Virus record (IMG/VR): IMGVR_UViG_3300045125_000085
Span: 80,007-144,006 of that record
From: a virus
DNA length: 64,000 nucleotides
Reading direction: 5' to 3' (one strand)
Shown here: one piece after another, positions 1,487 to 63,837 of the stretch
How the letters are laid out: each line of letters begins with the position of its first letter
How positions within the stretch are numbered: position 1 is the stretch's first letter
Notes under the pieces: model-generated
Database searches by the model: none
Seen by the model: the letters and a program-made list of their open reading frames with translations, nothing else
Told to the model about the DNA's origin: nothing
Translations under genes and position numbers: made by a program

Positions 1487-1575
1487 AGTCCATACAGCTG
1501 AACGACCGTATAGACTGGAAAGGGTGAATGATCTAGCCACCAGTAGGCTAAGATCATCTTTAATATATGGGATTA
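1487..1575 (-). promoter_or_regulatory. early promoter plus two-hairpin 5' leader
   Basis: Reading on the minus strand: CCCATATATTAAAGATG (promoter core, about 1575-1556), then hairpin 1 GATCTTAGCC-TACTGGT-GGCTAGATC (1555-1530, one bulge), then hairpin 2 AGTCTATAC-N12-GTATGGACT (1516-1487, one G:T pair), then the AGGAGGTGT ribosome site. Hairpin 1 has the same sequence as the copy at 53.1 kb. Hairpin 2 here lacks the GCTC loop seen in other copies. Confidence 0.65.
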
Positions 1576-1611
1576 TGTTTTTCTGCACTTTAAACTAGAG
1601 CTTTAGCTAGT

Positions 1612-1971
1612 TTACTCCACATAAATGCCTTTACCGATATCGATAAACTGCAGCAACTCTCGCATCTGGTCATACGTAGCAGTCAGGTTAAATAGCGTCT
1701 CATCCATAGTCTCGTCTAGGACTAGTACGCGTATCCACATAGATCATCCATGCTGATGCGGTATAAGTCTTTACTATCAGGAAACCGAAATAGCTTAAAG
1801 CCATGATACTGCTTAGCGACACATTCTTTTAAACAACTACTTAAAGCCGCCATGATCGTCCACGGCAATGACCAGACTGCATACTGCGTACCAGTCTGTT
1901 TTACTTTAAACTCTACGCCATGACTGATCTATACGTAGAGTATGCTGACGGTGCTTAATAATCGTTTTCAT
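1612..1971 (-). CDS. hypothetical protein, frameshifted
   Basis: Starts MKTIIKHRQHTLRI at 1971 and ends IDIGKGIYVE at 1612 after two frame changes (near 1920 and 1735). Joined length is about 118 aa. Readable stretches include KQTGTQYAVWSLPWTIM and FRFPDSKDLYRISMDDL. No family recognised. Codon use is like its neighbours. It is followed downstream by the small early-type gene and its leader. Confidence 0.5.
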
Positions 1972-2013
1972 AGGTAAAGGCTCCGGATGGTCTATAAATA
2001 AAAAAGTGGCATA

Positions 2014-2126
2014 GCAGAGAGTGCTATCACAGCACTCTCTGCATCTCATTTTAAGGTGCTACTTCAGCACCGTGATCTCAACTCATCCTGATAACGCATC
2101 CTAGCAGAGCTCGATCAGCTCTGCTC
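2014..2126. terminator. cluster of three hairpins
   Basis: GCAGAGAGTGCT-ATCAC-AGCACTCTCTGC (2014-2042, 12 bp), GGTGCT-ACTTC-AGCACC (2055-2071) and AGCAGAGCT-CGATC-AGCTCTGCT (2104-2126, 9 bp). They lie just past the end of the gene that stops at 2131, as expected for transcription termination. No long T run follows. Confidence 0.55.
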
Positions 2127-2130
2127 CTCA

Positions 2131-2802
2131 TTATCCTGCAGACTGACAGCCTAGCTTAGGTTTAGGAAACTTTAAGCAATCAAGTATGCTCAGATTCAGC
2201 CTATTCTTGAGGAACTCAAAACTAGGTAAGCGATCCTCACGTAATGCTTTCCTGATTTCATCAAAGCCTAGTATTAACCAAGGCCCGCAGTCTGGACGTA
2301 TCCGTACGCCATCTTCACGCTTATAGATGTAGTAACATTCTAGCTTTGAGCTCACAGTCCTTAAGAGCCTCAGCCCATTGCGGATACTGCTGGAGCTTTT
2401 GCCAGTTTGCATCCATGATGATTTCTCTGAAGTTAAATACTTCAGCTCTAGTCAGCTTACGTTCAAAGTTACGTAAGCGTCTGCCCACTAGACAGACTCC
2501 TTATCTCATCACAGCGTTCTGCTGATAAGACGTATTTCCAAAAGGTCTCGATAGAGCAGAATCTACCTAAGACATTATGGACAAACGGAGCTTGTGTACG
2601 CTGATCCAGAAACTGGCCGAGATCAGTACTACCGCGGTTCCAAATATTCAAGTGATCGACGCCGTCTTCACCCAAGGTCATCGGTGACGGCATCGGTGTC
2701 CTTATAAGGGTTATGGCGTCGAGTACGACGCTGTCCAGACCCTCTAAAGTCTGCTATTTGCCCCAGACCCTTGAAGTCTGGAGTATAAAGTTCATTTCGC
2801 AT
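2131..2802 (-). CDS. possible NADAR-fold protein, frameshifted
   Basis: Starts MRNELYTPDFKGLGQ at 2802 (GGAG ribosome site) and joins three frame pieces into about 223 aa. The core reads STDLGQFLDQ, APFVHNVLGRFCSIETFWKY, then a helical part and CGPWLILGFDEIRKAL near the C terminus. The arrangement Pro-Phe, Gly-x-Phe-x-Ser-Ile-Glu, aromatic, and a late Trp-Leu-Ile-Leu-Gly block resembles the NADAR/YbiA fold, some members of which remove ADP-ribose from guanine. That match is by eye only. An in-frame ATG at 2693 (MPSPMTLGEDG) is a shorter alternative start. Real gene: likely; NADAR: tentative. Confidence 0.5.
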
Positions 2803-2834
2803 AATTAAGCTCCAGGTAAGTCACACGATATCCC

Positions 2835-3072
2835 TTATGGCTCAGGCATTTCTTGCTGGTAAGTATATGCGTCAGAGAGGTGAAAGAACAGATAGATCAT
2901 TACCAATACTAGCAACCAGTGATTTTGTTTCAGCAAGGCGTCGCAGTATTCGTACTCTACTCGTAATTGCTCCTGGATAGGCTGAGGTATCAAGCAGGTG
3001 TCGGTGTCCTTATTGTCCTCGGGTTCAAAATACAGCCCGCCGGGCTAATACGCCACGTAACTGTATCATCAT
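2835..3072 (-). CDS. small single-pass membrane protein, frameshifted
   Basis: About 78 aa. It starts MMIQLRGVLARRAVYF at 3072, just after the stop of the gene upstream, with one frame change near 3025. The C-terminal half carries one hydrophobic segment, HWLLVLVMIYLFFHL, flanked by Asp/Glu on the N-terminal side. Function unknown. Confidence 0.5.
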
Positions 3073-3082
3073 GCCATTCCAA

Positions 3083-3379
3083 TTAGGACAGATTGATCTG
3101 TACCTGCTTAGTGAGATTCAGCACAAAGTCTCTCAATATCTCATCTTGGAAGATCTGCTCAGTCGTCCTTAATAAACTATCCGGCATGAGCAGCTGGTAT
3201 AGTCTATTACCGTAATACCACTGATAGAGAAAATCCATGACGTGTTCTTTATCATCTCTACCGCTAGGGAGTACACGCATGAGCTCTCTATCTAGTAACG
3301 CGATGATCAACTCACCGGCTTCAGCGAAACTAGGAGCCTGGGTAGTGACGCTATAGATGTAATTATTTTTCTCAGTCAT
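3083..3379 (-). CDS. hypothetical protein, 98 aa
   Basis: Intact 98-aa frame starting MTEKNNYIYSVTT with ribosome site GGAGCACCATC. Its ATG overlaps the TGA of the gene upstream (ATGA), which suggests translational coupling. Acidic and helical (ALLDRELMRVL, DFLYQWYYGNRL). No family recognised. Confidence 0.65.
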   Translation of the reverse strand: MTEKNNYIYSVTTQAPSFAEAGELIIALLDRELMRVLPSGRDDKEHVMDFLYQWYYGNRLYQLLMPDSLLRTTEQIFQDEILRDFVLNLTKQVQINLS

Positions 3380-3821: not shown

Positions 3822-3914
3822 ACTTAACTCCTAGGTCGAAGACTACTCTTAAGGTAGTCGGGTCGTGATATGTGCTCTTTAAATAAAGAGCACGGCCAGT
3901 GATAGGTCGTTATA

Positions 3915-4413: not shown

Positions 4414-4469
4414 GGCTATATCCTCAAGATTACTATATAAGTTTGATTTTTTTAGGAGCTGTCTTTTTA

Positions 4470-15742: not shown

Positions 15743-15760
15743 CAGTGTAAGTATATATCG
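15743..15760 (-). promoter_or_regulatory. possible early-type promoter
   Basis: Minus-strand CGATATATACTTACACTG about 50 nt upstream of the start of the double-HTH gene shares the ATATACTTA core with the early cassettes but lacks the hairpins. Confidence 0.35.
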
Positions 15761-37141: not shown

Positions 37142-37475
37142 TTACCAGTAGCTCTCTGAGCTGGCTGGTATCGACATGGCTTCAATGCGGGCGTCCTCCA
37201 GTCCTTTATAGACGCATAATACACCTTCCCAGTTGATTCTTTTGAAAGGGCTTCGAAAGACGATGTTGCCATCGTCTCTGACTTCTATGACAGCCTCACC
37301 ATCCTCGCGTTTCTCCACGATGACTTCTACGCCATCCTTGGCATAGACGACGCGAGTAGGAATTACAGCATTGCCAGACGCCAGCCGAGCTAACTCAACG
37401 ATGGTAGTTTTGGGAACAGCCATAATGTTCCAGTCGTCCAAAAAGAGATCAGTGGTCAATGTCACTTTTGCTCAT
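37142..37475 (-). CDS. small early protein, paralog of 62929-63257
   Basis: Start ATG 37475 (MSK) directly after GGAGGTGTATC; one extra A makes a frame slip, then VTLTTDLFLDDWNIMAVP continues clean to 37142. About 110 aa. It shares order and many residues with the protein at 62929-63257: LFLDDWN, VPxxxIVEL, LASG, VIYAKDGIEV, LKRINWE, EAMSI. No known domain. It has its own cassette with both hairpins. Confidence 0.7.
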
Positions 37476-37501
37476 GATACACCTCCAAAGATGTTACATT
37501 A

Positions 37502-37583
37502 CTCTAACAACCGAGCAGATTGTTAGAGCAGAAAGGAGGTTTATGATCTCAGCAGTAGGCTAAGATCATTCTAAGTATATGGG
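37502..37583 (-). promoter_or_regulatory. early promoter plus two-hairpin leader
   Basis: Minus strand: CCCATATACTTAGAATG (37583-37568), hairpin 1 GATCTTAGC-CTACT-GCTGAGATC (37567-37545), hairpin 2 CTCTAACAATC-TGCTC-GGTTGTTAGAG (37528-37502, 11 bp with two G:T or G:C closing pairs), then GGAGGTGTATC and ATG. Confidence 0.75.
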
Positions 37584-38391: not shown

Positions 38392-38413
38392 AATACACCT
38401 CCTTGGGTGTTGG

Positions 38414-38490
38414 CTCTAAGCCCGAGCAGACCTAGAGTATTGATGGATAGCCTGCTTATGCAGGCTTTGGTTCATGCTTACTATGTGGGA
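38414..38490 (-). promoter_or_regulatory. early promoter plus two-hairpin leader
   Basis: Minus strand: CCCACATAGTAAGCATG (38490-38473), hairpin 1 AGCCTGC-ATAA-GCAGGCT (38466-38449), hairpin 2 CTCTAGG-TCTGCTCGGG-CTTAGAG (38437-38414), then GGAGGTGTATT. Hairpin 1 here has a sequence unrelated to the other copies yet sits at the same place. Confidence 0.7.
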
Positions 38491-43661: not shown

Positions 43662-43683
43662 TAGATACCTCCTATTGCTGCAT

Positions 43684-43698
43684 TATTAGTATATGGGG
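43684..43698 (-). promoter_or_regulatory. early-type promoter
   Basis: Minus strand CCCATATACTAATAATG, matching the promoter core of the small-gene cassettes, 25 nt upstream of ATG 43661. No hairpin follows here. The hairpin terminator 43721-43759 is just upstream. Confidence 0.6.
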
Positions 43699-45929: not shown

Positions 45930-46109
45930 GAGTATTACTCTCTTGTGGATTAAAAGGAATGAGCAGTAGGGTATGCTCATAAGTAATATATGCGTCCCTG
46001 TTTTATTTCAATATAGCACTATTTTTAAGTCAGGAACTAATGGTGTGCGACCTCATTAGTGAGGCATATTACTCATTTGTTTTCATCACGATCACATTAG
46101 GCTACACCC

Positions 46110-49177: not shown

Positions 49178-49265
49178 TGGTACCCTCAGGCCGGACTCGA
49201 ACCGGCACGCTCGTAAAAGCAAGGGATTTTAAGTCCCTGATGTCTACCAATTTCATCACTGAGGC
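49178..49265 (-). tRNA. tRNA-Leu(UAA)
   Basis: Minus strand: GCCTCAGTGATGAAATTGG, D loop TTGGTAGAC, anticodon stem CAGGGAC-TTAAAAT-CCCTTG (anticodon TAA), long variable arm GCTTTTACGAGC, T arm GCCGG-TTCGAGT-CCGGC, acceptor 3' strand CTGAGGGTA and encoded CCA. The 5' acceptor strand has one C fewer than needed (GCC-CTCA expected), a probable sequencing gap in a C run. Confidence 0.9.
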
Positions 49266-51748: not shown

Positions 51749-52399
51749 TCAGGCAGCGAGTGCTGCCTTCAAGTCCGCCAAGCTGACAGTTTTCCCTTTA
51801 CCGAGCACGGCCTTGGCTGCCGATACTTCGTTGAGCCGACTCCTTGGCTTCACTGTTCCGCTGCCTCAGCAGCTTCGCGTGCCTGGATTTCCTTTTCCAG
51901 GCTGACCTTTACAGCGGCTTCTTCTTCCTGAATCGCAGCCAATTCCTTTTGCGCCGCGAACAATTGAGCCAGCGTATCCTCGCTAGCTGAGAACTTAGAC
52001 TCCTCGGCATCCAGCCGAGATGCCGTGTCCTTGAACTCCGCCCTTGATCCAGGTAACTATCATGCTCATCCGTGATCTGGTCGATCAATTCCTTTGGCTG
52101 GATACGCCGCCTTACTTCCTGTAAGGTGGCCTCCCATGTCTGGGTGGGGAACCATTTGCCGTTACCCCAGTCCTGACTCCATGTCAGGACGTCATAACCT
52201 GGAGCCAGCTCCACCGTCCAGGTGGTGTGGCTCCATTTGCCTCTCTTGCTATAGCTCTCATCCAACACCCGCAATACTGGCGGTATGGATACCCTGATGA
52301 ACGGGAGTATGCCCTGCCCTGGGCACAGTATGTAATTCCGATGGTGTCGGCCACGGTGGCCCATTTGGTTGTTCAGGCGGTGGTCTTTACTTCGCTCAT
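51749..52399 (-). CDS. early-island protein with coiled-coil tail, frameshifted
   Basis: Start ATG 52399 after AGAGGTGTATC (MSEVKTTA). Joined text PFIRVSIPPVLRVLDESYS, TTWTVELAPGYDVLTWSQD, EVRRRIQPKELIDQITDE, then a coiled coil AEFKDTASRLDAEESKFSA, KELAAIQEEEAAVKVSLEK, ending SLADLKAALAA. About 217 aa. Preceded by a hairpin of the early type at 52426-52453. Confidence 0.55.
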
Positions 52400-52425
52400 G
52401 ATACACCTCTTTAGTGTAAGAAATA

Positions 52426-52453
52426 CCCTACGCATCGAGCTAGATACGTAGGG
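52426..52453 (-). promoter_or_regulatory. leader hairpin before ribosome site
   Basis: CCCTACGTATC-TAGCTC-GATGCGTAGGG (11 bp with one G:T), 27 nt upstream of ATG 52399. The loop contains GCTC like the other leader hairpins. Confidence 0.6.
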
Positions 52454-52463
52454 CGGGAGGTGG

Positions 52464-52677
52464 TCAGTGGCTGCGTAGAATCATCGAAGATGATGTGCCG
52501 CAGTCGGGATGGCCGCTGCCACCACAGTAGCCTCCGACCTGGAGGCAGGTCGGGCAGCCGTCTTCCGTGACCAGTGCCATCCTTGGCTTTACCATCGGCC
52601 TTCTGGCCAGGGCAGCGACACTGCCCTTGATGGGGTTGAGATGTCGATATTTCGACGCGTGCGGTGATAGCGCTCAT
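52464..52677 (-). CDS. small Cys-rich zinc-ribbon-like protein, frameshifted
   Basis: Start ATG 52677 (MSAITARVEISTSQPHQ) after GGAGGTAATC. Reads CRCPGQKADGKAKDG, then after one indel ALVTEDGCPTCLQVGGYCGG and GHPDCGTSSSM. Cys pairs CPTC and C-x-GHPDC suit a zinc site. About 71 aa. Second gene of the 53-kb early operon. Confidence 0.55.
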
Positions 52678-52702
52678 GATTACCTCCAAAGGTAAGAGTG
52701 GA

Positions 52703-52726
52703 CTCTAGGCCCGAGCAGACCTAGAG
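52703..52726 (-). promoter_or_regulatory. leader hairpin before ribosome site
   Basis: CTCTAGG-TCTGCTCGGG-CCTAGAG, between the first and second genes of the 53-kb operon, so this element is not tied to a promoter. Confidence 0.65.
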
Positions 52727-52762
52727 CCAAGAAAAGTTTAATCCCGTTGTTCCTTACGGTAG

Positions 52763-53052
52763 CTAGGCATCCAGCCATTTGTTTACTTCCGTATATACTT
52801 CTCCTTCTGTCATGTGGGCTTCCATGCACGGTCTCCAGTTTTGCTGGAGGTTGGGGGAGAACATCTTCTCCTCGTTATGCAGAGGTACCTCTGTACCTCT
52901 TCATTCAGCTCGAATGTCCATAACTCAATGCCTCCTCCGAGGCGTTTCTCATTACTCCGTCTATTAAATACCCATATGTCAATAGACGTAGGTGCATCTA
53001 CGTCTGAAGAGGAAGAGAATGAAGTATATTGGCCGATGATTGCGTAGCACAT
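52763..53052 (-). CDS. small early-island protein, frameshifted once
   Basis: Start ATG 53052 right after TAGGAGGTTACC (MCYAIIGQYTSFSSSSD). After an indel near 52880 it reads VPLHNEEKMFSPNLQQNW and EGEVYTEVNKWLDA, about 97 aa. First gene of the operon driven by the cassette at 53075-53160. Unknown. Confidence 0.6.
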
Positions 53053-53074
53053 GGTAACCTCCTAGGGTTAAATG

Positions 53075-53160
53075 AGTATAGATAGCTGTGTGACTTTCTA
53101 TACTAGAAAAAGTGAGTAATCTAGCCACCAGTAGGCTAAGATCATAGTAAGTATGTATAG
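53075..53160 (-). promoter_or_regulatory. early promoter plus two-hairpin leader
   Basis: Minus strand: CTATACATACTTACTATG (53160-53144), hairpin 1 ATCTTAGCC-TACTGGT-GGCTAGAT (53142-53119), hairpin 2 AGTATAGA-N14-TCTATACT (53104-53075), then CCTAGGAGGTTACC. Confidence 0.7.
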
Positions 53161-53194
53161 CTATATATCTTTTCAATCCAAGTTAAGTCGAGCA

Positions 53195-53224
53195 TATAGG
53201 CTAGTGCTTTCACACTCAGCCTAT
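53195..53224. terminator. hairpin upstream of the 53-kb cassette
   Basis: Minus strand ATAGGCTGAGTG-TGAAAG-CACTAGCCTAT with one bulge. Confidence 0.55.
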
Positions 53225-53281
53225 TGCTAAGTTATTCTAGTAGACCCCTAGGCCGTACATTAGTAGGCCCGGTAGAGTGCC

Positions 53282-53671
53282 TTAATAGGCCCAATTATGG
53301 ATATCTATGACCTTCTGATCAGCAGGAGCACGCACCGTCTCACGGGTCACAGTAAAGGCTACACAGTTTACAAAATCATCCCGTACACCTTGCTCTCTCA
53401 ATGCCGTCAGTATAGGAAACGGCAAGATCACTATGTCGGCACTATCGGCCAGTTCTTGCAGAAAAGCGATCTGATCATCCGACATCTGCATACGAGTCTC
53501 ATTGATATGCATGCCATTGACTACAGCTACTTTTCTAAACTTACGATATAGCGTCAACTTCTCTAGGACTTCTTTATCCTGGCCCTCAGACACCGTACCG
53601 TCGTTAAAGCGTAACGGCTGAGTCGTCAAAGTAATGACACGGCTACCATTATTCAGCAAATGAATTTTCAT
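53282..53671 (-). CDS. hypothetical protein, about 129 aa
   Basis: Intact. Likely start MKIHLLNNGSRVITLTT at 53671 (an in-frame start three codons earlier is possible). Text DKEVLEKLTLYRKFRKVAVV, MQMSDDQIAFLQELADSAD, ILPFPILTALREQGVRDD. No family recognised. Confidence 0.6.
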   Translation of the reverse strand: MKIHLLNNGSRVITLTTQPLRFNDGTVSEGQDKEVLEKLTLYRKFRKVAVVNGMHINETRMQMSDDQIAFLQELADSADIVILPFPILTALREQGVRDDFVNCVAFTVTRETVRAPADQKVIDIHNWAY

Positions 53672-53879
53672 GCGATACACACTCGTTTTATTAAAAAGAA
53701 AAAAGGACTGGAGCGCTAGCTAGGACTCCATACGAGTATCGCTTTATTTTCTTTATTTATAGTATGGATTTTCGTACGATGTGCTCAGCATGGTAGCAGT
53801 ACTTATAACAGACTGCTGCATGGTTAGCTGCAATGGTTGATGTATGAGCACTCGTAATGAAGTCTTCCAAAAGCAAAGG

Positions 53880-53919
53880 CATAGCCCCCTAGGCGCAATA
53901 GCTCGCCTAGGGGGCTATG
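53880..53919. terminator. 16-bp perfect hairpin
   Basis: CATAGCCCCCTAGGCG-CAATAGCT-CGCCTAGGGGGCTATG, just past the gene ending at 53924. The interval 53672-53879 otherwise holds only AT-rich sequence with a possible promoter (ATCCATACTATAAATAAAG on the minus strand). Confidence 0.7.
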
Positions 53920-53923
53920 TCGC

Positions 53924-54148
53924 CTATGCATTCGTTACAGTACCGAGACTGACTGTAGTCGGAGCCATCAGGTCATTACTAGAGATATTGAGACTATCAG
54001 TATTACTAGCAGTACCTACAGCAGTATTATCATTACCTGTCACGAACAGATTAAAGTGCACACCATCCGGAGATGCTACGAAGTACATCGTATCAGGATC
54101 GAGCTGATCCGGGAGTTGGTTAACGCGTTCCATTTTTAAGAAGCTCAT
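53924..54148 (-). CDS. small fibre-type protein, 74 aa
   Basis: Intact. MSFLKMERVNQLPDQLDPDT then MYFVASPDGVHFNLFVTGND. Same N-terminal pattern as the protein at 24742-25143 in the fibre cluster, and as short virion proteins in other phages. Placed 29 kb from the fibres. Probably virion-associated. Confidence 0.6.
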   Translation of the reverse strand: MSFLKMERVNQLPDQLDPDTMYFVASPDGVHFNLFVTGNDNTAVGTASNTDSLNISSNDLMAPTTVSLGTVTNA

Positions 54149-54161
54149 AGTAGCTTAGACC

Positions 54162-54353
54162 TCATTTGAAAAAACAATGATACCAGAATAGCCAGAGTCG
54201 CTCAAAGCCATCTTCACAGTACCAGATATAGATTTGATAGTAGATATACCGACCGATGATACAGCTGATTATAGCCAGCACTATCAGAAGTAAAAACTCT
54301 ATGCCCTCTAACCAAATAGGCAGTGAGTCTTTATGATCGTGGATATTAGGCAT
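54162..54353 (-). CDS. small membrane protein, 63 aa
   Basis: MPNIHDHKDSLPIWLEGIEF then a strong span LLLIVLAIISCIIGRYIYY and an aromatic end (ERLWLFWYHCFF). Starts 1 nt after the stop of the large gene upstream. Unknown. Confidence 0.6.
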   Translation of the reverse strand: MPNIHDHKDSLPIWLEGIEFLLLIVLAIISCIIGRYIYYQIYIWYCEDGFERLWLFWYHCFFK

Positions 54354-54354
54354 C

Positions 54355-55522
54355 TTAACTCACCACAGCTTCACTGAAGCTGATCGTGGCGTCTACGATA
54401 TCGCGGTAGAGTTTAAAGATGATTTTGAAATAAACAAAGCCTGCTGTCTGTGTAGCTAGATAGAGCAACCAGCTAAAGCGAGGCATAGTCTGGTATAGCT
54501 TAGGCATGTAGCGCAAATAATGTTCCATGCTATTCAAATACTCACCCATGGTGCGTAATATAGTCTCTATGTCGCTTTTCAATATACGCTCAAATACTAA
54601 TGGCGATTTATCAAAACTAGTGAGCTTAGTGTCAGTGATCTCGATTGCAGTTATTATCCAGATACAGCTTATCTCTAATAGAAGATTCAGGCAGGTTGAA
54701 GTTAAAGATAATGCCTTGGCCAGTAGGATAATAGACTGACTCTATCGTAATAGCGACTTTATCTTTCTTTACAGTTTTGCTAAACTCCCAGTTACCCGGC
54801 GTAAAAGGGTTACTGTGCTTATCAGCGTTGCTTTCGATCTCATCCACGATCTCAGCTAAGATCTTATCAAACCGATCATCAGACTCAGCTGTACTGATAG
54901 TCAAGAAATAATTAAGCATACCGCCACAGTTCGTACTAATGTCTTCATTAGCTCTCATGATAGCGCTGATGAAGTCTTTAATAGTGTCTACTCGGTTCTT
55001 AGTCGTAATGCCTTTGTAGCTAGTGTGGAATAATACCGGATCAGCTACCTTGATATTATCGAAACTATCCACTGGTGATGATCGCAGTTGTTTTAAAATA
55101 GCATCTATTTGCTTTTAGAAACCTTGGATGCCGCCATTGACTTCATTTTGCCAGCTTAGAAACTCCTCATGTAGTTTACCGAAGGCTTTTTTAAAGTCGG
55201 CTTCATTCTTACCTATTTGAATACCGAGCTTCATCAGCATGGAGTCGATGCCTTCTAAACTCGGTACGACTGAATCAGGTCGACAGGCGGTACCGGCGAC
55301 AGCCATGTTCGCTGCTATCCGGCATAATGTGCGGACTTCTGGGTTGTTTAAGCTTTCCTGACTGATAGATGCCTGTATCGCTTTCTGTTGTTCGATGATG
55401 AAGCCAGATCGCTTAATATCGGCTGTTAAATTTTCAATACGTTGCTCAGCCTCTAATGCAGCTACCCAGTGTGAGAGTGGGCTAGCTATCTGTAAGGCTG
55501 GCGTACGACGTGCTCGACGCAT
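54355..55522 (-). CDS. virion-type helical protein, frameshifted
   Basis: Starts MRRARRTPALQIASPLSH at 55522 (TTGAGGATACACCT). Three clean pieces, 55522-55115, 55072-54632 and 54630-54355, read as one protein of about 390 aa: LHEEFLSWQNEVNGGIQGF, KQIDAILKQLRSSPVDSF, EITDTKLTSFDKSPLVF, ending SFSEAVVS with a hydrophobic patch FSWLLYLATQTAGFVYF. Long helices, no catalytic motif; resembles inner-head or virion proteins of jumbo phages. Confidence 0.55.
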
Positions 55523-55563
55523 AGGTGTATCCTCAAAGGTGGGTAGATGTATCAAAAGCATTT

Positions 55564-55603
55564 GAAAAAAAAAGCAAGCGATCCAGAGCCCCGAAGGACT
55601 CTG
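55564..55603 (-). terminator. rho-independent terminator with UUCG loop
   Basis: Minus strand CAGAGTCC-TTCG-GGGCTCTG followed 11 nt later by a run of nine T. Ends the 57-kb early operon. Confidence 0.8.
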
Positions 55604-55791
55604 AAGGCTCACTCTCTGGAGTGCTAGATCTCGGGTTGGGCACTCAATAGGGCTTCCTTGTCCAGGCCCGTGGACCTGCAGATGTTCCGACTTGTCGCAG
55701 CGAGCACCCTGCCCAGTTTCCGCACACATCCAGATTACCTTCCAGATAACCTTACCACAAAACCCGGCCAAGGAATTTCACCTTAGCCATA
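55600..55791 (-). CDS. small Cys-containing early-island protein, frameshifted
   Basis: MAKVKFLG at 55791, one indel, then GFCGKVIWKVIWMCAETGQG and ARCDKSEHLQVHGPGQG. Possible C-x-C/C-x-H zinc site (WMC, ARCDKSEH). The exact end before the terminator is uncertain. About 60 aa. Confidence 0.4.
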
Positions 55792-55958
55792 TCGAGACAG
55801 ACCTTTTCCAGCTTCTAACACGCGGACGTTGCTCCTGCCAGACACCTCCAAGGATGCCGGTTGATCTCCGAAAACCCACCGAGCGAAGATAGGTAGAGCT
55901 GAGAAAATACCGATAAATTAGCTAGGGCGTCCGTGCCCCCTGAAAGCTCCGCCAGCCC

Positions 55959-56397
55959 CTATCTCTTTATCCAAAGCAGGCTGATTCCCTCAATCCCTTT
56001 CTGGGAAGGGGTCCTCGGGGGTGCCAATCTTGCAAGGCTCTTTACTCTCCGATACTGCTTCCCCACATACTTTCCATCCTTGCTGCACCGTATAGGCAGC
56101 TTTCTCCATATTCCCTCGTTTATCCAGCCGTACTCCGGCAGGATTTCTTCGGGTGCGGCTAATCGCCACTCCGAGGACTCCAAACCTTCTACCGGAGTAT
56201 CAAAATCCACAGGTCCTACCTTCCCTGTTATCTAAAGCATCCTTGTCCTTCCTTCGTCTAGCCATTTTAACGAGCCGTACCACTTAGGCTCGTACTTTGG
56301 CCTGCAGCCGTAGCCGCTGCCATCGACTAGCCCATACTCCCATCCTTGGAATCTGGTGGTATTCAATATTTCCTCTAATGTTAAAACTGTGCGTCAT
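55959..56397 (-). CDS. early-island protein(s), frameshifted
   Basis: Start ATG 56397 directly after TAGGAGGTGACT (MTHSFNIRGNIE). Joined text FQGWEYGLVDGSGYGCRPK, KWYGSLKWLDEGRTRML, then VDFDTPVEGLESSEWRLAAP and ILPEYGWINEGIWRKLPIR, ending ISLLWIKR at 55959. One gene of about 145 aa with two breaks, or two adjacent genes. Second gene of the operon that starts with the metallopeptidase. Unknown. Confidence 0.5.
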
Positions 56398-56423
56398 AGT
56401 CACCTCCTATTTAGGTGCTGACC

Positions 56424-57001
56424 TCATGCCCGAGCAGCAGCGGTATTGAAAAGTTGATTGATATACACCCTACAACCGCCTTCCATGTAGTACGGCTTAC
56501 TGGCCTTCCTTGACGCATAAGCATCCGATACCGGATTACCCCCAAACCAACTAACCGTGACTTCTCTGTAAAGCAGTTGGAATATCCTTGGCCATAACTG
56601 AAAATATACGTTCAGCACGACAGTCGGCCATAACTCCACAGGTTGTCTAATGGCCGACCCCCACCAACACCTGAGTATCGCCGTGATCGCATCCTTGGTC
56701 GATACCCCGTTCTCAACAGAGTATAGATCTGCCATACATTCCCTTACCGACGGCAGTAATCTCTCCAATCCCTGCGGCTTCTCTCCATGGTGACCGAGCA
56801 ACTTATGCCCGATCTCGTGGAGAATAACGAATCTAAACTGCTCTTCCGTGAGTCTTTCTAAAGCCTCGCGTGAATTGTCACGCTGCCGTCTGAATTAAGG
56901 GCACCCCCTCCGCTTTCCTTAATGAAATCAATATCGTCCGTGACCGTAACATTGAGGTTAAGCATATTTACCAGTGATGCCAATACTTGAACATTGCTCA
57001 T
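56424..57001 (-). CDS. HExxH zinc metallopeptidase-like protein, frameshifted once
   Basis: Start ATG 57001 right after GGAGGTGTATT (MSNVQVLASLVNMLN). One indel near 56880 joins GSVTIHAR to LTEEQFRFVILHEIGHKLLG. HEIGH gives the two zinc His and the catalytic Glu; ECMADLYSVENGV about 25 residues on gives the third ligand, as in IrrE/ImmA and related gluzincins. Then two further helical segments, ending FNTAAARA. About 192 aa. First gene of an early operon. Might cleave a host regulator or defence protein; target unknown. Confidence 0.75.
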
Positions 57002-57029
57002 AATACACCTCCAAAGGGCATATGTTAAC

Positions 57030-57110
57030 TCTACCAACTTGAGCAGTCTGGTAGAATAGAAAAAGGTTTACGATCTCAGCAGTAGGCTAAGATCATAAGT
57101 AGTATGTAGT
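57030..57110 (-). promoter_or_regulatory. early promoter plus two-hairpin leader
   Basis: Minus strand: CTACATACTACTTATG (57110-57094), hairpin 1 GATCTTAGC-CTACT-GCTGAGATC (57095-57073), hairpin 2 TCTACCA-GACTGCTCAAGT-TGGTAGA (57055-57030), then GGAGGTGTATT. Confidence 0.75.
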
Positions 57111-57146
57111 GCTGTAAAAAACTCCAATGTAAGCAAAAAGCATAAG

Positions 57147-57176
57147 AGCCCAGAGAGCACGATGGCTCTCTGGGCT
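57147..57176. terminator. 12-bp hairpin, CATATAGCCC family
   Basis: AGCCCAGAGAGC-ACGATG-GCTCTCTGGGCT, between the gene ending at 57220 and the 57-kb early promoter. Confidence 0.7.
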
Positions 57177-57219
57177 ATATGATCGATTAGCTTATGCTGC
57201 CATCTCCAGCTCAAAGTGA

Positions 57220-57694
57220 TCAGACTGGTTCGTTTTCTTTACGTGCATTCCTTCGCTGTCTACGTAGCTGGTTCATGTACGTAGTGATCCTTTTCATGGG
57301 CGACTTTAGACTGCGATCCTGCAGTACTTCCCTAGGGATAATACCCCAGTGAGTGTAGTCTGGCTCACCATCGATCTCCCTGACTTGGATCGATACGCCG
57401 ATATCACTGACCTCCGCCACGACATCATTGTCGTAAAACGCGGAAGTACATAGTACCTATCTCCACTAGCAGATGACTGCTGTCATAGAGTCTTCTTTTA
57501 TTGAGCTGAAATCTTTGGTAGATTAGTCTACCGATAGGGATCAGCACATCCCACTTAAAGTGATATTGAAAGAAGTTCCTTTCTACTACGAGCCCTTCAG
57601 GACTCAGATGAAAGTGCATTCCGTCGCAATCGAACTCTAAGTCCCTGAGTATAAACTCCTTAGTTTCTACTGCATTGATTTCTTGGTTTGACAT
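57220..57694 (-). CDS. hypothetical protein, frameshifted once
   Basis: Starts MSNQEINAVETKEFILRD at 57694; near 57430 one indel joins VEIGTMYFRV to FYDNDVVAEVSDIGVSIQV; ends RRNARKENEPV. About 158 aa. A beta-rich first half and a basic C-terminal helix (MNQLRRQRRNARK). Unknown. Confidence 0.55.
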
Positions 57695-57741
57695 GACTGC
57701 TATGCTCCGCTATTATTACGGTTTAAGGAAAAGCTAGATAC

Positions 57742-57961
57742 TTACAAAGGAAAGCTGTGAGTATCTAATACGTTACCATGAGCATCCAGCCTTTGGATGA
57801 TCAGACTATTTGCACTATACTCATTCCGCCATCTAGCATCTCTAATGAGATCAGTGATGACGTCACGATTGCGCTCGAAGCAGGCTTTATACTTCAGTCG
57901 TTCTTTAACGACGTTGGCGACTAAAGCACTGTCTTCTCTGCTTTAAAGAGTATCTGGACAT
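57742..57961 (-). CDS. small protein of about 73 aa, frameshifted once
   Basis: MSRYSLKQR at 57961 (GAGGTAGTTT), one indel, then SALVANVVKERLKYKACFE, NRDVITDLIRDARWRNEY and LDAHGNVLDTHSFPL. Preceded by an early-type promoter. Unknown. Confidence 0.5.
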
Positions 57962-58002
57962 AAACTACCTCATGGTAAAAAGGTGCTACGCTCATTCGGT
58001 AG

Positions 58003-58018
58003 CATTAAAAGTATATGC
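58003..58018 (-). promoter_or_regulatory. early-type promoter
   Basis: Minus strand GCATATACTTTTAATGC, 40 nt upstream of ATG 57961. No leader hairpins. Confidence 0.5.
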
Positions 58019-58067
58019 ACTTGTAATTAAATGCATTCCATACTAACATAGCGTAAAAAATATCCAG

Positions 58068-58105
58068 CATATAGCCCTGAGAGCACGATGGCTCTCAGGG
58101 CTATG
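58068..58105. terminator. hairpin after capsid gene
   Basis: CATATAGCCCTGAGAGC-ACGATG-GCTCTCAGGGCTATG. Confidence 0.7.
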
Positions 58106-58159
58106 TGGCGGCTAGCCTAGATTACTAGTAGTCTTACGGCACTACGTGGTAGACGTGGC

Positions 58160-60344
58160 TTAAGGTACCACGTGGTTATTCACAGACAGCGGTACCTTGT
58201 TGAGTACATCAGGTACATTTTCTACCGTCAGTACAGCCATGATAGGCAGATGACTCACGTGCAGGAAGCGCGGACTGACCGCGATTTCACGAGAGATCTG
58301 ACCGTCACGTGAGATCGGCAGTACCAGAGTCAGTTCAGGACTCCACGCCATGTTACCGAAGTTCAACGGATTCGGCTCTACGTTACGGTTTTCATCGAAT
58401 ACGCCAAAGGTAATGAAGATCTTACCTGAGACGCGATGATCCAGCGTAGATACGATACGTACGTCGAACTGACCACCCAGCGTACGCAGATCGCCAGTCA
58501 CCGTCAGGTAACGAGCCAGTACCGGATCAGTACCGATGATGACGGTGGGTACCGGAGAGATACCGCCATTCAGAGCATCAGCTGCCGCTTTGTATTCAGA
58601 ATCCCGATACAGGCGATAGGCATGGTCACGGATCTTATTGATGATAGCGTTCTGCAGATCTTCTACACGGCTGGTCGAAGTCAATGAATCGACGATGGCA
58701 GACATGTCCAAGAGTTTCTTCAGAGAACTTAGGCAGCACGTAGAAGCGACCTACACCGAGTACGTCCGGCGGAGTGTTGTTGCCATCTCTAGCGTCGATA
58801 TAAGTACGCAGGATGTTAGCGGTATTGATCAGAGCGCCTACAGCCATATTCGAGGTACGAATACGAGTAGCGGTAATCAAGCTAGCCAGATCACCAGCAT
58901 CCGACTGACCGTCCATAGTCATGGGGTGGATAGCCGTAATCGGCGAACGCATCTGCACGTTGTACAACTGAGTGTAGTACGTGGTGTCGATCAGCTGACC
59001 GCGTTGACGACGGTTGATGTTGGTACGATAGGCTTGGAGTTCATAACCTATCACTTTACCACCGTTAGCAAACAGATCAGCCAGAGTCTTGCCTACGCCA
59101 GACTTCAGATCCAACTGGTTGCCAGCAGCATCAGAGACGCTGTGGATAGATACGTCATTGCCATAGACTGCGCAATCACCGAGTTCGATGTTGACTTGGC
59201 CAGACAGTACCAGCTTCAGACGTACGATCAGGTCGCCAGACTTGACGCCACCCAGAGCAGCCAGAGCACTACCGTCGAAGTTCTTAGTATCTTTGTTCAC
59301 CAGCACCGAAGTGGTAGAGAAGTTCAGATACATAATGCGATAGTTGTTTTGCTGTGCGTAAGCAAAAGTAGCCAGCGGCAGTTCATTCGTCATGAACTTC
59401 AGCACGTCAGTATGACCAGCGCCATCATCGACAGATACATACACGGTCGACAGGCGGATAGCCGGATCGATCGAGTCAGTAATGTCCATCAGACCTGAGG
59501 CCAGCAGAGTATCAGTCTGGCTGATACCCAGCAGTGACAGCGACTTACCTACTGCCAGAGGAGCAGTCGGAATGGTTTCGCCTTCCAGGTTCAGGTTATA
59601 AGGAGCTACCAGAGCGCTGTCTACAAACATCGCTTCAGATTCCGGACGATGTACCGGGATCAAGCGAGTCATTTCGTTCTTCAACAGAGTGTAGTCTGCG
59701 ATAGCACGAATGATGTTTTTCTTGTTGTAGTTATCCAGCGCACCAGAGATCTGACGATGCAGACCATTGTACACCATCATTAAACGGACAGTCACGCCGA
59801 AGCCGACGTTATCCGGAGTCACTACGATGGTGGGGAAGAAGGTTTCGCCAAATTCGTCCTGACGAGCCGCTTGCATGTTGTAAGCGATCGAGTAGACGGC
59901 AGCGTTACGGTTTTCCCGTTCGTCATAAGCTTCAAATGAAGGACGGACACCGACTACGTCATCCATGCCTAATCCAGTCATATTGACGATAGACATGTTT
60001 TCAGCAGCGATAGCAGGCATCTTCAGCCTTATGTGACAGGAACTGACGTACGTCACCTGCTAACAGACCTGCTGCAGTAGCTGCATCTTTCTGAGCCTGA
60101 GTCATTTCACCGCGCATACCGAGTTGGTCTGCGATTTGTTCTACGGCGATAGACAGACCTTCAGCTGCAGTGTTCAGCATATCTACTTGGTCGCTACGGA
60201 TAGATTCCATCGCCAGCGCAGCTGCTGGTTACAGCCGGGTTAGCATACTGATGGGTATCCAGGGATCTGACGCAGTGACTGCACTACCGTCTGCAACGGA
60301 GTCGGTGCACTGTGTCCTTGCAATTTCTTTTGGAAAAAAGACAT
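58160..60344 (-). CDS. major capsid protein candidate, frameshifted
   Basis: Starts MSFFQKKLQGHSAPTPLQ at 60344 (GAGGACTACAC) and ends PLSVNNHVVP at 58160, about 725 aa, which is the size of phiKZ-type capsid precursors. Breaks near 60240, 60010 and 58690. N-terminal 100 residues are helical (DMLNTAAEGLSIAVEQIAD), a likely cleaved propeptide with A-x-E sites. Core: GVRPSFEAYDERENRNAAV, GETFFPTIVVTPDNVGFGV, MTRLIPVHRPESEAMF, LKLVLSGQVNIELGDCAVY. Clean 1.4-kb frame in the middle and the smaller head gene directly upstream support the call. Confidence 0.65.
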
Positions 60345-60440
60345 GTGTAGTCCTCGTAAGTTATAAAAGAGAAGAGTAGTGTGCTACATAGAGTATGAAC
60401 ACATATGGCCGTGAGTGGGTCGTGATGGATACCCTGCAGG

Positions 60441-61136
60441 CTATTTAAAGCTAATGTCAGGTAATCTATAAATACCGGCGTATGACAGACGTCACCCACT
60501 GGTACGAAGCCGTAGAGCGCTTTCAGGTAATCCGAGACGAAGCGGAGTGCGTACGTCCTATCCTGAAGCGCGTTCAGTATGCCCGGTTTAATATGAAGAT
60601 AGTATTGACGCGTAGGCGCCAATTCAAAATGGTAGTATTCTTCGCCATCGTCGATGTCAGCTAGTACTTTAGCACTGCCGTCACCGCTGTTAGTGCTCAT
60701 GAGTTGAGCACGCGCTTCATTCTTAATAGCTTCAGTCATAGCCGCAGGACTGATGACGGTGCAGTATTCTACATCTTTATAGGCTTCACTACCGCCGACC
60801 TGACCAGCCATGCCCCAGCCATCACTCATACGCTGCGTATTCGCTAAGTATGGGCCGAAGAAGTTAATGCGTTGAAGAGCAGTCAACATGATTAAGTCAT
60901 TGACCGATAGGATTTTGCGTAAAGCCTTGTAATCACTAATGGTGTTCGTAGGGACTTTAGCTAAACGAAATGCCTCTCTTAACCAGCTAGGTATGACATA
61001 GCCGCGCGGCATAAAGCTCGCCTGCATACATCTCCATGTAAGTAGCATACGGTGCTTTTAAGAAAGGGTTGTAAATCTGCATACGCCCCGACGGACCTTT
61101 ATCGAGATACGTCGCCTGTGAGTCATGATAGGCCAT
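60441..61136 (-). CDS. head protein upstream of major capsid gene, frameshifted
   Basis: Starts MAYHDSQATYLDKGPSGR at 61136 right after GGAGGTCGCCACTT. One indel near 61030 joins ATYMEMYAGE to FMPRGYVIPSWLREAFRL; then NDLIMLTALQRINFFGPYL and YYHFELAPTRQYYLHIKPG. About 230 aa; the 3' end is uncertain (a stop at 60441 needs one indel). Paired with the capsid gene, as gp119 and gp120 are in phiKZ, from memory. Confidence 0.55.
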
Positions 61137-61331
61137 AAGTGGCGACCTCCATAGGGTCGTTCCGGTGAAAATGAGGAAAAGATAGAGTATGAGTCTATAC
61201 GATACATCCTCTGTAGAGCCTCAATCTACCGCACTCTCAGTACGATAGATAAGAAAAATTCAGGCTACTCGTTACATGGAATGACCCTTTACTCCACGAC
61301 CTTTATTATCGATTTAGAGATTCGCCCGATG

Positions 61332-62864
61332 GACAACCGACTCCTCCTCGTCAAAAGCATCACGCTCCTGTATCGCGAAAGCCAACTCATCCATAAGACG
61401 GCTAATAGTGCTGACTTAGTCCGCACTGTGTTAGAAGCCGTCACTATCCCAGGATGCAGGCATCGGTATCAGTGGTGAGCGTGAAATACTCCTCGGCCTA
61501 GGGATACGGCGATCGAGATGTGTAATAACTCACTCGATCATGAATACGCCATGGATGACTTATTACAGCGTGTCCGCTTAAATTGCGGTGATGATGAACG
61601 CTTGTATCAAGTCATTAGCGATGGCTTAAAGGACCTGAAGTCTGAAGGTCATTTAAAAGCGTGCTATCATTAACGCACAAAAGTCTTCGCATAACTTCTT
61701 CCGTGAGCAGAAGATCAATGAGATACTGAATAAAGCCAGCTATCAGTTTAAGTACCATCGTGATAAAATCACCGATGTCAATGGCTTTATTAGCGAACTC
61801 GTAAACCAGTTAGAACCTTTACAAATCGCTAATGGCGGCACTGATCCTGCTATCACTAGCGATATCGATATCGGCGATGTATCGTCATTGTCACGAGTGT
61901 TTAATAACATCCAAGATCAGTCTAGCGATATAGGTATATTGAAGACTGGTTGCAGCGCGTCAATGAGATGCTGAATGGTGGTTTTCGTAGAGGTGAGTTC
62001 GTTTGCGTACCGGCTTTACAGCATAAGTACAAGACGGGCTTTAGTCTATCATTGTTTAAGCAGTTCGCTATCTACAATAAACCACACATGCTAGACTCGT
62101 GGCAGAAGCCTTTGATCCTGCGTATCTCGTTTGAAGACGATATAGAGCTGAATATAAAGTTCATGTACCAATCGCTGATGATGGAAGAGTCGTATGAAAA
62201 AGCACTCGACCTGAAAGTCTCTACGGACGTCATGAGCAGCTATATCAAAGAACGACTGCAAGTCAATCGGCGGCCAGTGTCAAGATGATACGCGTCGATC
62301 CGTCGTTATGGACGTATAAGCACATTTGTAATAAAGTCTTAGAACTCGAAGCTCAAGGCTATGAAGTCCATGTACTGATGGTAGACTACTTGTCTAAGCT
62401 GCCGCGTACCGGCTGTAACAATAGCGGGCCTACGGGTACTGATTTGAGAGACATGTACTCTAGGATGCGTAACTTCTGTGCGCCTAGGAAGACGTTGTTT
62501 ATTACACCGCATCAGTTGTCGACGGAGTCTAAGCAGTTATTACGCTCAGGTATGCCTGAGGATCGCTTTCTGAAAGAGATGGCGTGGAAAGGTTACTTCG
62601 AGTCGAGCCGTCAGTTAGATCAAGAGTACGACGTAGGTCTGTATATGTGCATGTGTTTAAGCATAATAAGGAGAGCTGGCTTTCCGTACTGAAAGAAAAG
62701 CATAGAGGTCAAGATCACTGGTGAGGATGAGCAGTTTGCTTTGTATCAGTTTCCCTAAGGTGAAGCTGCCTATAGCTGATGATCTGTTGGGTGAGAATAC
62801 CGCCTATCTGAAACTACCGAGTGCGAGTAGTAATACGGATAGTGATCTGTTTAGCTTTAAGTAA
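61332..62864 (+). CDS. DnaB-like replicative helicase, frameshifted
   Basis: Starts MDNRLLLVKSITLLYRES at 61332 and ends ASSNTDSDLFSFK at 62864, about 510 aa; breaks near 61460, 61520, 61670, 61940, 62270, 62650 and 62745. N-terminal helical domain (AMDDLLQRVRLNCGDDERL). ATPase domain: ILKTGWQRVNEMLNGGFRRG, then Walker A region ALQHKYKTGFSLSLF with the Lys-Thr kept but the Gly pair lost, Walker B EVHVLMVDYLSKL, FITPHQLSTESKQLL and a final YDVGLYM. Order and spacing are those of DnaB-family helicases. Confidence 0.7.
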
Positions 62865-62880
62865 AAAAAAAGAGAGTGAG

Positions 62881-62920
62881 CATACAGCCCAGAGAGCACT
62901 ATGGCTCTCTGGGCTATATG
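62881..62920. terminator. hairpin, CATATAGCCC family
   Basis: CATACAGCCCAGAGAGC-ACTATG-GCTCTCTGGGCTATATG, between convergent helicase and early genes. Confidence 0.7.
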
Positions 62921-62928
62921 ACGTCTCT

Positions 62929-63257
62929 CTACCAGTCTATCTCTGACTGGTTTATTGACATGGCTTTCATGTGTAAATCGTTTAGTCCTCTACATACGGT
63001 AGAGGACTTTCTCCCAGTTAATCCGCTTAAGTGGGTGATGGAGAACGACTATGCCCTTTTCCCTAACCTCTACGACGGCCGTGTCATAAATCGATGTTCA
63101 CACTCACTTCTATGCCATCCTTGGCATAGATGACGCGCGAAGGCACCACGGCATCGCCTGATGCCAATCCGACTAATTCAACAATGATGTTTTCAGGAAC
63201 GCTCATTACGTTCCAGTCGTCCAGAAATAGATGGCCTGTCGTCAATGTCACTTTCAT
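62929..63257 (-). CDS. small early protein, paralog of 37142-37475, frameshifted
   Basis: Start ATG 63257 after AGGAGGTGTTT (MKVTLTTGHLFLDDWNVM). Clean for 57 codons, then two indels; continues YDTAVVEVREKGIVVLHHP, LKRINWEKVLY, CRGLNDLHMKAMSINQSE, ending IDW at 62929. About 110 aa. Shares LFLDDWN, VELxxLASGxAV, RVIYAKDGIEV and KRINWE with the 37-kb copy. Confidence 0.65.
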
Positions 63258-63279
63258 AAACACCTCCTAAAAAGTATAT

Positions 63280-63304
63280 GCTAGCGACCGAGCAGATCGC
63301 TAGC
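63280..63304 (-). promoter_or_regulatory. leader hairpin before ribosome site
   Basis: GCTAGCGATC-TGCTC-GGTCGCTAGC (10 bp), 23 nt upstream of ATG 63257, inside an operon. Confidence 0.75.
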
Positions 63305-63324
63305 GGTGTGAAGATCAGATAAGG

Positions 63325-63726
63325 CTATTGCCGTTTCGTATCATAAAGATGCGGGAACAACTCCTTGTCGTCTACGTCCTTAGCAATACTGGATTAATCC
63401 CTCTATGGTGTCCCAGCCTGTTTCTTTCACATCCTTTCCGACGGGACGTAATCCTCATCTTCTTCCTCAAAGAAACCAGGAAGCAAGATCTTGGCTGTAT
63501 TCCAGCCATAGCGCACGATCGCTATGGCCTTCGTAGCACTCGTCTGAGTATACATTCCGTCCGCTCCTTCCTCTCCTCCGTGTAGGTATGAGGCCAGCGC
63601 CGCCACGAGACCAGGGTCTACCCAGTCTTCCTTCAACCCAGCAGCCGCTTTCACGACGAGTTTTTGCACGGCGCATCCTGGCTCCCAGTTCATCCCTGTT
63701 TCTGCCCAATCGAGTATATGGCTCAT
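63325..63726 (-). CDS. early-island protein, frameshifted
   Basis: Start ATG 63726 after GGAGGTGTACT (MSHILDWAETGMNWEPG). A clean frame to 63440, then two breaks: VGKDVKETGWDTIEGLIQ and SIAKDVDDKELFPHLYDTK, stopping at 63325. About 133 aa, acidic toward the end (FFEEEDEDYVP). First gene of the operon driven by the 63.8-kb cassette. Unknown. Confidence 0.6.
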
Positions 63727-63751
63727 AGTACACCTCCGAAAATAGGAGTGG

Positions 63752-63837
63752 GCTCTATTAGTCTGAGCAGTCTAGTAGAGCATAAAAAGAATGAAACAAT
63801 CTCAGCAGTAGGCTAAGATCATAAGTAATATGTATAG
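63752..63837 (-). promoter_or_regulatory. early promoter plus two-hairpin leader
   Basis: Minus strand: CTATACATATTACTTATG (63837-63821), hairpin 1 GATCTTAGC-CTACT-GCTGAGAT (63820-63799), hairpin 2 GCTCTACTAGA-CTGCTC-AGACTAATAGAGC (63781-63752, two mismatches), then GGAGGTGTACT. Confidence 0.75.

Follow-up and report, generated by a model that had tools for sequence, protein, structure and literature searches.

Early cassettes on a phiKZ-like contig

We analysed a 64,000-base stretch (the window) of a virus record, IMGVR_UViG_3300045125_000085, in which an earlier note made from the letters alone had described a repeated early-gene cassette: a promoter, a hairpin at the start of the transcript, a second hairpin and a strong ribosome-binding site. 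The window comprises bases 80,007-144,006 of the 144,006-base record; contig coordinates are distinct from window coordinates, and positions below are window positions unless the contig is named. All six leaders were found, five on the minus strand (1487-1575, 37502-37583, 53075-53160, 57030-57110 and 63752-63837) and a sixth with a different hairpin sequence (38414-38490). GGAGG lies ahead of the ATG in 6/6, and the repeated cassette itself was supported. Two features had been overlooked that are the most telling on mechanism: hairpin 2 has a loop complementary to the region of the start codon, and a third hairpin takes in the Shine-Dalgarno (SD) sequence.

The genome was correctly described as phiKZ-like. 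The capsid protein matches PhiKZ_MCP, and the contig carries two genes resembling the beta subunit of RNA polymerase (RNAP) whose matches are the counterparts in Xanthomonas phage LucasX. Multisubunit RNAP genes, as expected of a phage with phiKZ-type early promoters, are encoded by the phage itself. Among named phages, Burkholderia phage FLC9 (45.8%) and LucasX (39.5%) are nearest in capsid protein, and the phiKZ nuclear shell protein weakly matches a short stretch (E 7.2e-7).

A position weight matrix (PWM) was built from 19 sites found by regular expression, spanning 15 bases before to 2 bases after the presumed +1. On the contig it returned 37 sites above 8 bits, compared with 6-18 in mononucleotide shuffles. 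The top 23 sites (at least 12.4 bits), 4 of which were outside the training set, all lie on the minus strand. The 12.4-bit cut was our choice, and the next sites on the contig, which were left out, scored 12.0 (minus), 11.9 and 11.4 (plus) and 11.3 (minus, 84431). The element has the consensus CATATACT-N6-G. The G six bases past it is present in 23/23 sites, though these sites were aligned on that G or picked by a PWM covering it. N6-G follows the exact core TATATTAC at 7/7 sites that were found, without using the G, in the first 50 kb of phiKZ, and two relatives, G032 and G007, have the same spacing in CATATACTTAACTTG. Early RNAs of phiKZ, phiR1-37 (and AR9) are reported, in the available part of PMC5312081, to start 6 nucleotides downstream of the element, and an AT-rich core with a G six bases downstream also appears in that of PMC7598289; the contig's promoters are like these. 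Judged by its sequence, the AT-rich core belongs to the early (virion RNAP) promoters of phiKZ type. Because the same spacing occurs in the phiKZ sequence, at the published starts and in G032/G007, the presumed +1 is well grounded as a putative position. Matches resembling sigma70 promoters, scanned for in 52000-64000, numbered 10 against 18.1 in shuffles, that is, fewer.

In the six leaders (all minus strand) the promoter cores lie at 1556-1569 (CATATATTAAAGAT, 21.6 bits, presumed +1 at 1555), 37568-37581 (CATATACTTAGAAT, 23.5 bits, +1 at 37567), 38474-38487 (CACATAGTAAGCAT, 21.0 bits, +1 at 38473), 53144-53157 (TACATACTTACTAT, 18.3 bits, +1 at 53143), 57095-57108 (TACATACTACTTAT, 22.0 bits, +1 at 57094) and 63821-63834 (TACATATTACTTAT, 19.8 bits, +1 at 63820). 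Hairpin 1 follows at 1530-1555 (the GGTGGCTAGATC variant), 37545-37567 (GATCTTAGCCTACTGCTGAGATC), 53118-53143 (the GGTGGCTAGATT variant), 57072-57094 and 63798-63820. In leader 38414-38490 the placement of hairpin 1 at the start did not hold, as its stem (AGCCTGC..GCAGGCT, 38449-38466) begins 7 nucleotides past the presumed +1. Of the 7 copies of the exact 15-mer GATCTTAGCCTACTG in the 144-kb contig, each on the minus strand, 5 fall inside the window. When as many as 3 mismatches are allowed, GATCTTAGCCTACTGNTG matches the window 6 times, compared with 0.20 expected and at most 2 in any of 100 dinucleotide shuffles; five of the matches are exact, on the minus strand at the leaders named above, and the sixth is a plus-strand match with 3 mismatches. 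A related GATCTTAGCC..GGCTTAG form is present in a further leader (contig +1 at 1976).

Where GATCTTAGCC is lacking, promoters often carry a different palindrome at the start. Examples, given by promoter position on the minus strand, are TGAGCA..TGCTCA (45979-45992, identified by PWM and stem score), TGCTAC..GTAGCA (58004-58017, outside the PWM training set) and TGAGTA..TACTCA (15744-15757, likewise outside it and the weakest accepted site at 12.4 bits), and further ones are TGAACCTA..TGGGTTCA and TGATCATGGT..GCTATGATCG. By the same two measures, the promoter at 43682-43695 (minus) has a short leader without a +1 hairpin. We scored the +1 stem at 17 non-redundant promoters, excluding six near-identical GATCTTAGCC copies, all six of which have the hairpin. 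The mean score was 6.56, compared with 2.53 in dinucleotide shuffles (reached in 0/500), and an earlier test with mononucleotide shuffles reached the observed score in 0/1000. A clear hairpin at the +1 G or one base earlier (score threshold 5) was found at 10/17 sites, a weak stem at 4 and none at 3, and the proposed plan therefore applies to many early promoters rather than to all. Since the highest stem score falls one base before the presumed +1, the claim that hairpin 1 lies "exactly" at the transcript start is good to 1-2 nucleotides. The stems vary in sequence, which favours a structure over a single DNA motif.

Several side observations concern early leaders and their flanks. Perfect stems of at least 9 pairs lie within 140 nucleotides upstream of 14/23 early promoters in an uncontrolled count, for example the terminator-like hairpin at 57147-57176 (minus); they end 39-97 nucleotides before the presumed +1 and are often followed by TATGC, and few have a long T run. 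The linker between hairpins 1 and 2 is pyrimidine-rich (CCTTTTTCT, CCTCCTTTC, CCCTTTCC; e.g. 57058-57071 and 37531-37544, minus), and the predicted fold of one leader has it paired with the SD. By eye, 2/7 exact core sites in the first 50 kb of phiKZ show a hairpin at +1 or +2. The early leader of the phiKZ nuclear shell gene seems to open with a hairpin (GAATCTA..TAGGTTC, L322 45582-45609), as does the one behind the contig promoter at 25073, upstream of a shell-like fragment (contig 23322-23825).

Probable pairing of the leader with the initiation region

Hairpin 2 was found in 14 leaders, 11 linked to a promoter and 3 promoterless. These were chosen by eye from lists of strong SD sequences, and leaders with a weak SD may therefore be missing. 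The loops hold GCTC, GTTC or CACA, and the starts ATGAGC, ATGAAC or ATGTGC correspond to them. In the six window leaders, hairpin 2 lies at 1487-1516 (loop CGTTCA, complementary over 5 bp to the TGAAC of ATGAAC), 37500-37530 (TGCTC, 5 bp to the GAGCA of ATGAGCA), 38414-38437 (TGCTCG, 5 bp to GAGCA), 53075-53104 (CACACA, 4 bp to the TGTG of ATGTGC), 57028-57057 (ACTGCTCAAG, 6 bp to TGAGCA) and 63752-63781 (ACTGCTCAGA, 5 bp to TGAGC, with the ATG at 63726). Two promoterless copies on the minus strand can pair over 4 bp with an ATGAGCG start: a hairpin 2 with hairpin 3 at 52672-52737 (start at 52677), and a hairpin 2 at 52425-52454 (loop TAGCTCGA; start at 52399, opening an 8-codon frame).

Complementarity of the loop to the start codon and codon 2 reaches at least 5 contiguous bp in 10/14 leaders and at least 4 bp in 13/14. 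When the starts were permuted among the leaders 20,000 times, the count at 5 bp or more was reached in 7 permutations, that at 4 bp or more in 14, and the sum in 16. Sliding the target three positions at a time between -30 and +60 gave 10 matches of at least 5 bp at the start codon, 6 at the next step and 0-1 elsewhere. Both sides of the loop-start helix have changed together, C-G to U-A and U-A to A-U, at two of its four pairs. In an alignment of the 14 leaders (A4), 80.9% of the cells of hairpin 2 and the loop-start helix are paired, compared with 29-38% for slid partners. Six leaders were first examined after the pairing idea arose, and of these, 5 have a match of 4 bp or more and 3 have one of 5 bp or more. 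A wider scan of 324 SD-plus-start candidates on the contig gave 8 loop-start matches of at least 5 bp (permutation mean 2.4, maximum 8), 7 of which are members of the 14 leaders. The loop of hairpin 2 is thus complementary to the initiation region and covaries with it, as is expected of leader pseudoknots. Given the small sample and the relatedness of the leaders, we grade the pairing, as read from these sequences, as likely but not proven.

In hairpin 3, the bases from the GG of the SD through the SD-AUG spacer can pair with those just 5' of the SD, so that the loop contains GGA. It lies (minus strand) at 1463-1480 (CATACCT-TAGG-AGGTGTG, with the SD in loop and stem; ATG at 1460), 37479-37494 (ACATCT-TTGG-AGGTGT; ATG at 37475), 38395-38410 (ACACC-CAAGGA-GGTGT; ATG at 38391), 53055-53070 (TAACC-CTAGGA-GGTTA; ATG at 53052) and 57003-57023 (ATATGCC-CTTTGGA-GGTGTAT; ATG at 57001); in the leader with its ATG at 63726 it is unconvincing (score 3.5). 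One of the 14 rows of A4 (c31020) is misplaced and hairpin 3 is out of register in that alignment; this element was therefore tested sequence by sequence. At scores of at least 5, 6, 7 and 8 it was found in 13, 12, 11 and 7 of the 14 leaders, compared with 34, 20, 9 and 4 of 172 other SD-plus-ATG starts, and a two-strand permutation reached the observed value in 29/20,000 trials. The promoter class, the hairpins and the covarying loop-start and spacer pairings can be read from the sequence itself.

The genes behind the leaders had been described as small unknowns. A Pfam scan covering 6 of the 14 leader-driven proteins left four without a match. Two outside the window did match: the protein at contig 42288 (contig 41848-42195, minus) is STIV_B116-like (PF08960, E 9e-12), and that at contig 32150 weakly resembles Peptidase_M48 (E 1e-4). 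We take the PF08960 family to include the type III anti-CRISPR ring nuclease AcrIII-1, and the STIV_B116-like protein is possibly such a nuclease, which would fit early counter-defence genes. That each leader drives a gene held in part: the ATG of leader 37502-37583 opens an 8-codon frame only. This ATG (37475) is out of frame with the reading frame common to the copy at 63257; the two belong to a related gene pair (37142-37475 and 63084-63257, minus). The PhiKZ capsid, RNAP beta-like and NrdA genes are broken over several frames or pieces (58160-60056, minus; contig 59826-64080, minus; 46110-48956, plus), which suggests indels in the assembled contig or, in NrdA, an insertion. Because these conserved genes are split, indels are likely, and the short leader-driven frames should not be over-read. 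At the gathering threshold, the sole Rfam match in the window was a tRNA gene (49182-49265, minus), and the leader fold had none.

A different fold in related phages

Relatives were collected with a two-sequence capsid alignment, which gave 36 loci in viral_contigs; a single-sequence MCP search gave none. Promoters and leaders were covered by scripts over the whole or nearly the whole of G007, G032, G012 and G011, and by model and pattern in G037. A single regular expression covered G003 and G004 whole and G001, G002, G005 and G006 whole or in part, the other relatives were covered by flanks or patterns, and phiKZ and LucasX over 50 kb each. The expectation of further family members was borne out by extra copies in the rest of the contig; none of the other records searched yielded the contig's leader family. 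Its own promoter pattern gave 7 one-mismatch matches in 36 relative records, compared with 8 for the reversed control and 15 on the contig, and on the FLC9 genome its PWM gave 2 sites above 8 bits, below the shuffles of that genome (7-11). In viral_contigs the pattern matched at least 118 stretches; 80 loci were scored, and the best 45 rows are without such a leader. Two other candidate sets from viral_contigs were rejected: 3 exact matches to hairpin 1, judged on reading to be chance, and 36 matches to a pattern of hairpin 2, SD and ATGAGC, among which 1 had a stem of at least 6, in GC-rich DNA.

With a matrix made from 15 sites in the relatives, 19 sites scored above 9 bits in G032 and 18 did so in G007, 36/37 of them on one strand of their record. 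We folded 18 long G032/G007 leaders and aligned 17, dropping G007 111838 for its different fold. The extended hairpin that these leaders share joins the 5' end of the RNA to the SD-AUG spacer and bulges out the SD; an inner and an apical helix follow. In this fold 90.8% of the cells are paired, compared with 30.6-47.1% for slid partners, and double-change cells number 48 against 18 in shuffles. The helix of 5' end and spacer was reached in 0/20,000 permutations, both for the 18 leaders and for the 13 distinct ones. RNAalifold on alignment A2 missed P1, MAFFT having shifted four rows, and the named structure was counted instead. A covariance model of the leader (R1) gave 19 good and two weak matches in 1.25 Mb. 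The good ones are the 17 training rows, a decayed G032 copy and a G037 copy repeating G032 sequence; the structure was counted a second time on the R1-fitted alignment (20 distinct rows of 21), which leans towards structure and includes the two weak matches. At E up to 1, R1 had no match in the contig, FLC9, G011, G012 or the first 50 kb of LucasX. The fold is without an Rfam family at gathering score in the loci scanned. Across 7 further loci (L203, L204, L210, L211, L013-L015) the sole Rfam match at the gathering threshold was a group I intron, which lies in G032 (L204 5411-5703, minus).

Common to the contig leaders and those of G032/G007 are an SD in a loop or bulge and a paired spacer. 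By reading alone, the G032/G007 genomes have, behind the other fold, proteins that carry the same motifs as the contig's leader-driven proteins (NAFS, GH.DTA, GPRLPEG; HE.GH). Among 17 shorter leaders of these two relatives the +1 hairpin is enriched (mean reached in 5/500 shuffles), and among 8 sites found in six other relatives with one regular expression, inspection by eye shows a clear +1 hairpin at 3, two of them in G003 and the third in G001. Judging from these sequences, the contig and other phages have in common the class of promoter and a tendency to fold the early leader, which two relatives do with another fold.

A possible gate on early translation

We favour, with some reserve, the reading that the early-mRNA leader serves as a translation gate combined with protection of the 5' end, both being predicted roles. 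A phiKZ-type virion RNAP promoter would start the RNA of each cassette, and its 5' end would fold immediately into hairpin 1, shielding it against decay that depends on the 5' end. Hairpin 2 would fold next, and its apical loop would pair with the start codon and codon 2 as a pseudoknot, while hairpin 3 would pair the SD-AUG spacer and display the GGA of the SD in its loop. Together the three elements would close the ribosome-binding site as a regulon-wide gate, to be opened by the 30S subunit or by a phage or host factor, and otherwise unrelated early genes could be translated with common timing or strength. We infer from the sequence the transcript start, the pairing at the RNA level and the gating and protective roles. 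Such a folded leader is the simplest account that takes in every part; it would work like a translational pseudoknot leader, with regulation as its predicted role.

A number of observations weigh against this reading. The count of 10/17 promoters passing score 5 lies within the dinucleotide shuffles (mean 4.5, maximum 12), and the mononucleotide shuffles reached the count in 84/1000. The stem often takes in the base preceding the presumed +1, although an RNA started at the G would not contain that base, and enrichment of the +1 hairpin was absent at 21 sites in G012 (mean reached in 404/500 shuffles). The promoterless hairpin 2 at 63280-63304 (minus, loop TCTGCTCGG) precedes an ATGAAA start at 63257 to which its loop is not complementary, the sole exception of the 14. 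The 14 leaders are related, and their non-GAGC starts represent perhaps three or four independent events. Starts opening frames of 7-8 codons occur in 3/14, perhaps through contig indels. Before loop costs, the duplex UGCUC/GAGCA is worth -5.4 kcal/mol and GUUCA/UGAAC only -3.0. The 172 comparison starts for hairpin 3 were not matched for SD strength, and a strong GGAGG SD that is partly looped could equally signal efficient translation.

This last point leads to the main rival, stability with efficient SD display, in which the structures only protect the early mRNA and present the SD for fast ribosome capture, with no regulation. Stem-loops at the 5' terminus stabilise E. coli mRNA, the contig's hairpin lies at or near +1, and the SD is long, near consensus and in a loop or bulge in both lineages. 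A specific, covarying pairing with the start codon is not predicted by this alternative, and we consider it rather unlikely. The fold could also be the site recognised by a phage protein that represses or activates translation of early genes, in function like T4 RegA or the gene 32 pseudoknot; this is a special case of the gate and so overlaps with it. One fold on many early genes would suit such a site, and T4 offers precedents for regulon-wide and pseudoknot-based control in the available part of PMC3014915. The same part describes RegA sites as without apparent structure; moreover, related phages have two unrelated folds, and no candidate protein was sought. We hold this version to be unlikely.

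Loop and start codon might also have been inherited jointly in a few cassette types, so that chance and relatedness produced the match. Few ancestral types stand behind the 14 leaders, and no homologue was found in the other records searched. The permutation and position tests of the loop-start pairing speak against such an origin, as does the independent second fold in relatives, which likewise involves the initiation region, and we judge it a little less likely again. If the palindromes acted in DNA, as operators or polymerase contacts at the start, then the leader pairings would be by-products of cassette duplication. The cassettes are clearly duplicated and the stem reaches the base before the presumed +1, but hairpin 1 sequences diverge widely with pairing kept, and covariation of the loop-start and spacer pairings is found a long way downstream of the start site; this is very improbable. 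Transcriptional attenuation, in which hairpin 1 or 2 would terminate part of the early transcripts before the gene, seems to us the least probable. A terminator scan of 52000-64000 gave 12 hits against 7.4 in shuffles, including hairpin 1 at 57094 and 63820 and the promoterless hairpin 2 at 63280-63304 and 52425-52454, and the linker behind hairpin 1 is pyrimidine-rich. Against it, the runs rich in T are short or stand apart from the stem, the terminator list lacks the other window leaders of that stretch, and the start-codon pairing is left unexplained.

Among known systems, hairpins of the ompA type at the 5' end stabilise mRNA; the contig leaders are alike in having a hairpin at the mRNA 5' end and unlike in sharing it across a phage early gene set. 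The T4 gene 32 pseudoknot sits upstream of the ribosome-binding site of a single autoregulated gene, in contrast to a family with the start codon itself in a helix. The two are alike in that a leader pseudoknot is tied to phage translational control (PMC3014915, in part). The likeness to T4 PeSLs proposed in the earlier note stands as an analogy: as far as the available excerpts describe them, these are early promoters with stem-loops, repeated ahead of small early genes and termed 'composite conserved promoter-terminator motifs'. They differ in promoter class, the contig's being phiKZ-type and not T4-type (host sigma70) early, and in the contig the structures of note are within the transcript and take in the start site. 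The 5' untranslated region of phiKZ p40 also has two predicted stem-loops, but this is one gene, and its 180-nucleotide RNA was treated as non-coding, with possible premature termination (PMC8545117).

Early gene control of phiKZ-like phages is described as transcriptional in the available parts of PMC5312081, PMC7598289 and PMC4848604. The word 'hairpin' is absent from all three and 'stem-loop' from the latter two. The accessible portion of a jumbo-phage overview uses 'hairpin' for protein parts only (PMC7824862), and that of a T4 transcription review has nothing on such cassettes (PMC2988021). We found no description of such leaders in phiKZ-like phages, an absence limited to partial texts and to search results outside which the main phiKZ transcriptome papers lay.

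Returning to the translation gate, a broader version of it can be put forward tentatively. Jumbo phages of this group may lock an early regulon translationally by folding the ribosome-binding site against the leader; lineages may have swapped in unrelated folds on similar early genes (STIV_B116-like, HExxH protease-like), and a phage-timed factor or the early infection compartment may open the lock. A covarying structure over many early start codons would open translational control of the takeover phase to direct testing. The leaders give defined RNAs to probe, and they would mark early, possibly counter-defence, genes. Two lineages with different folds for seemingly the same job would offer a clean case for comparing how leaders evolve.

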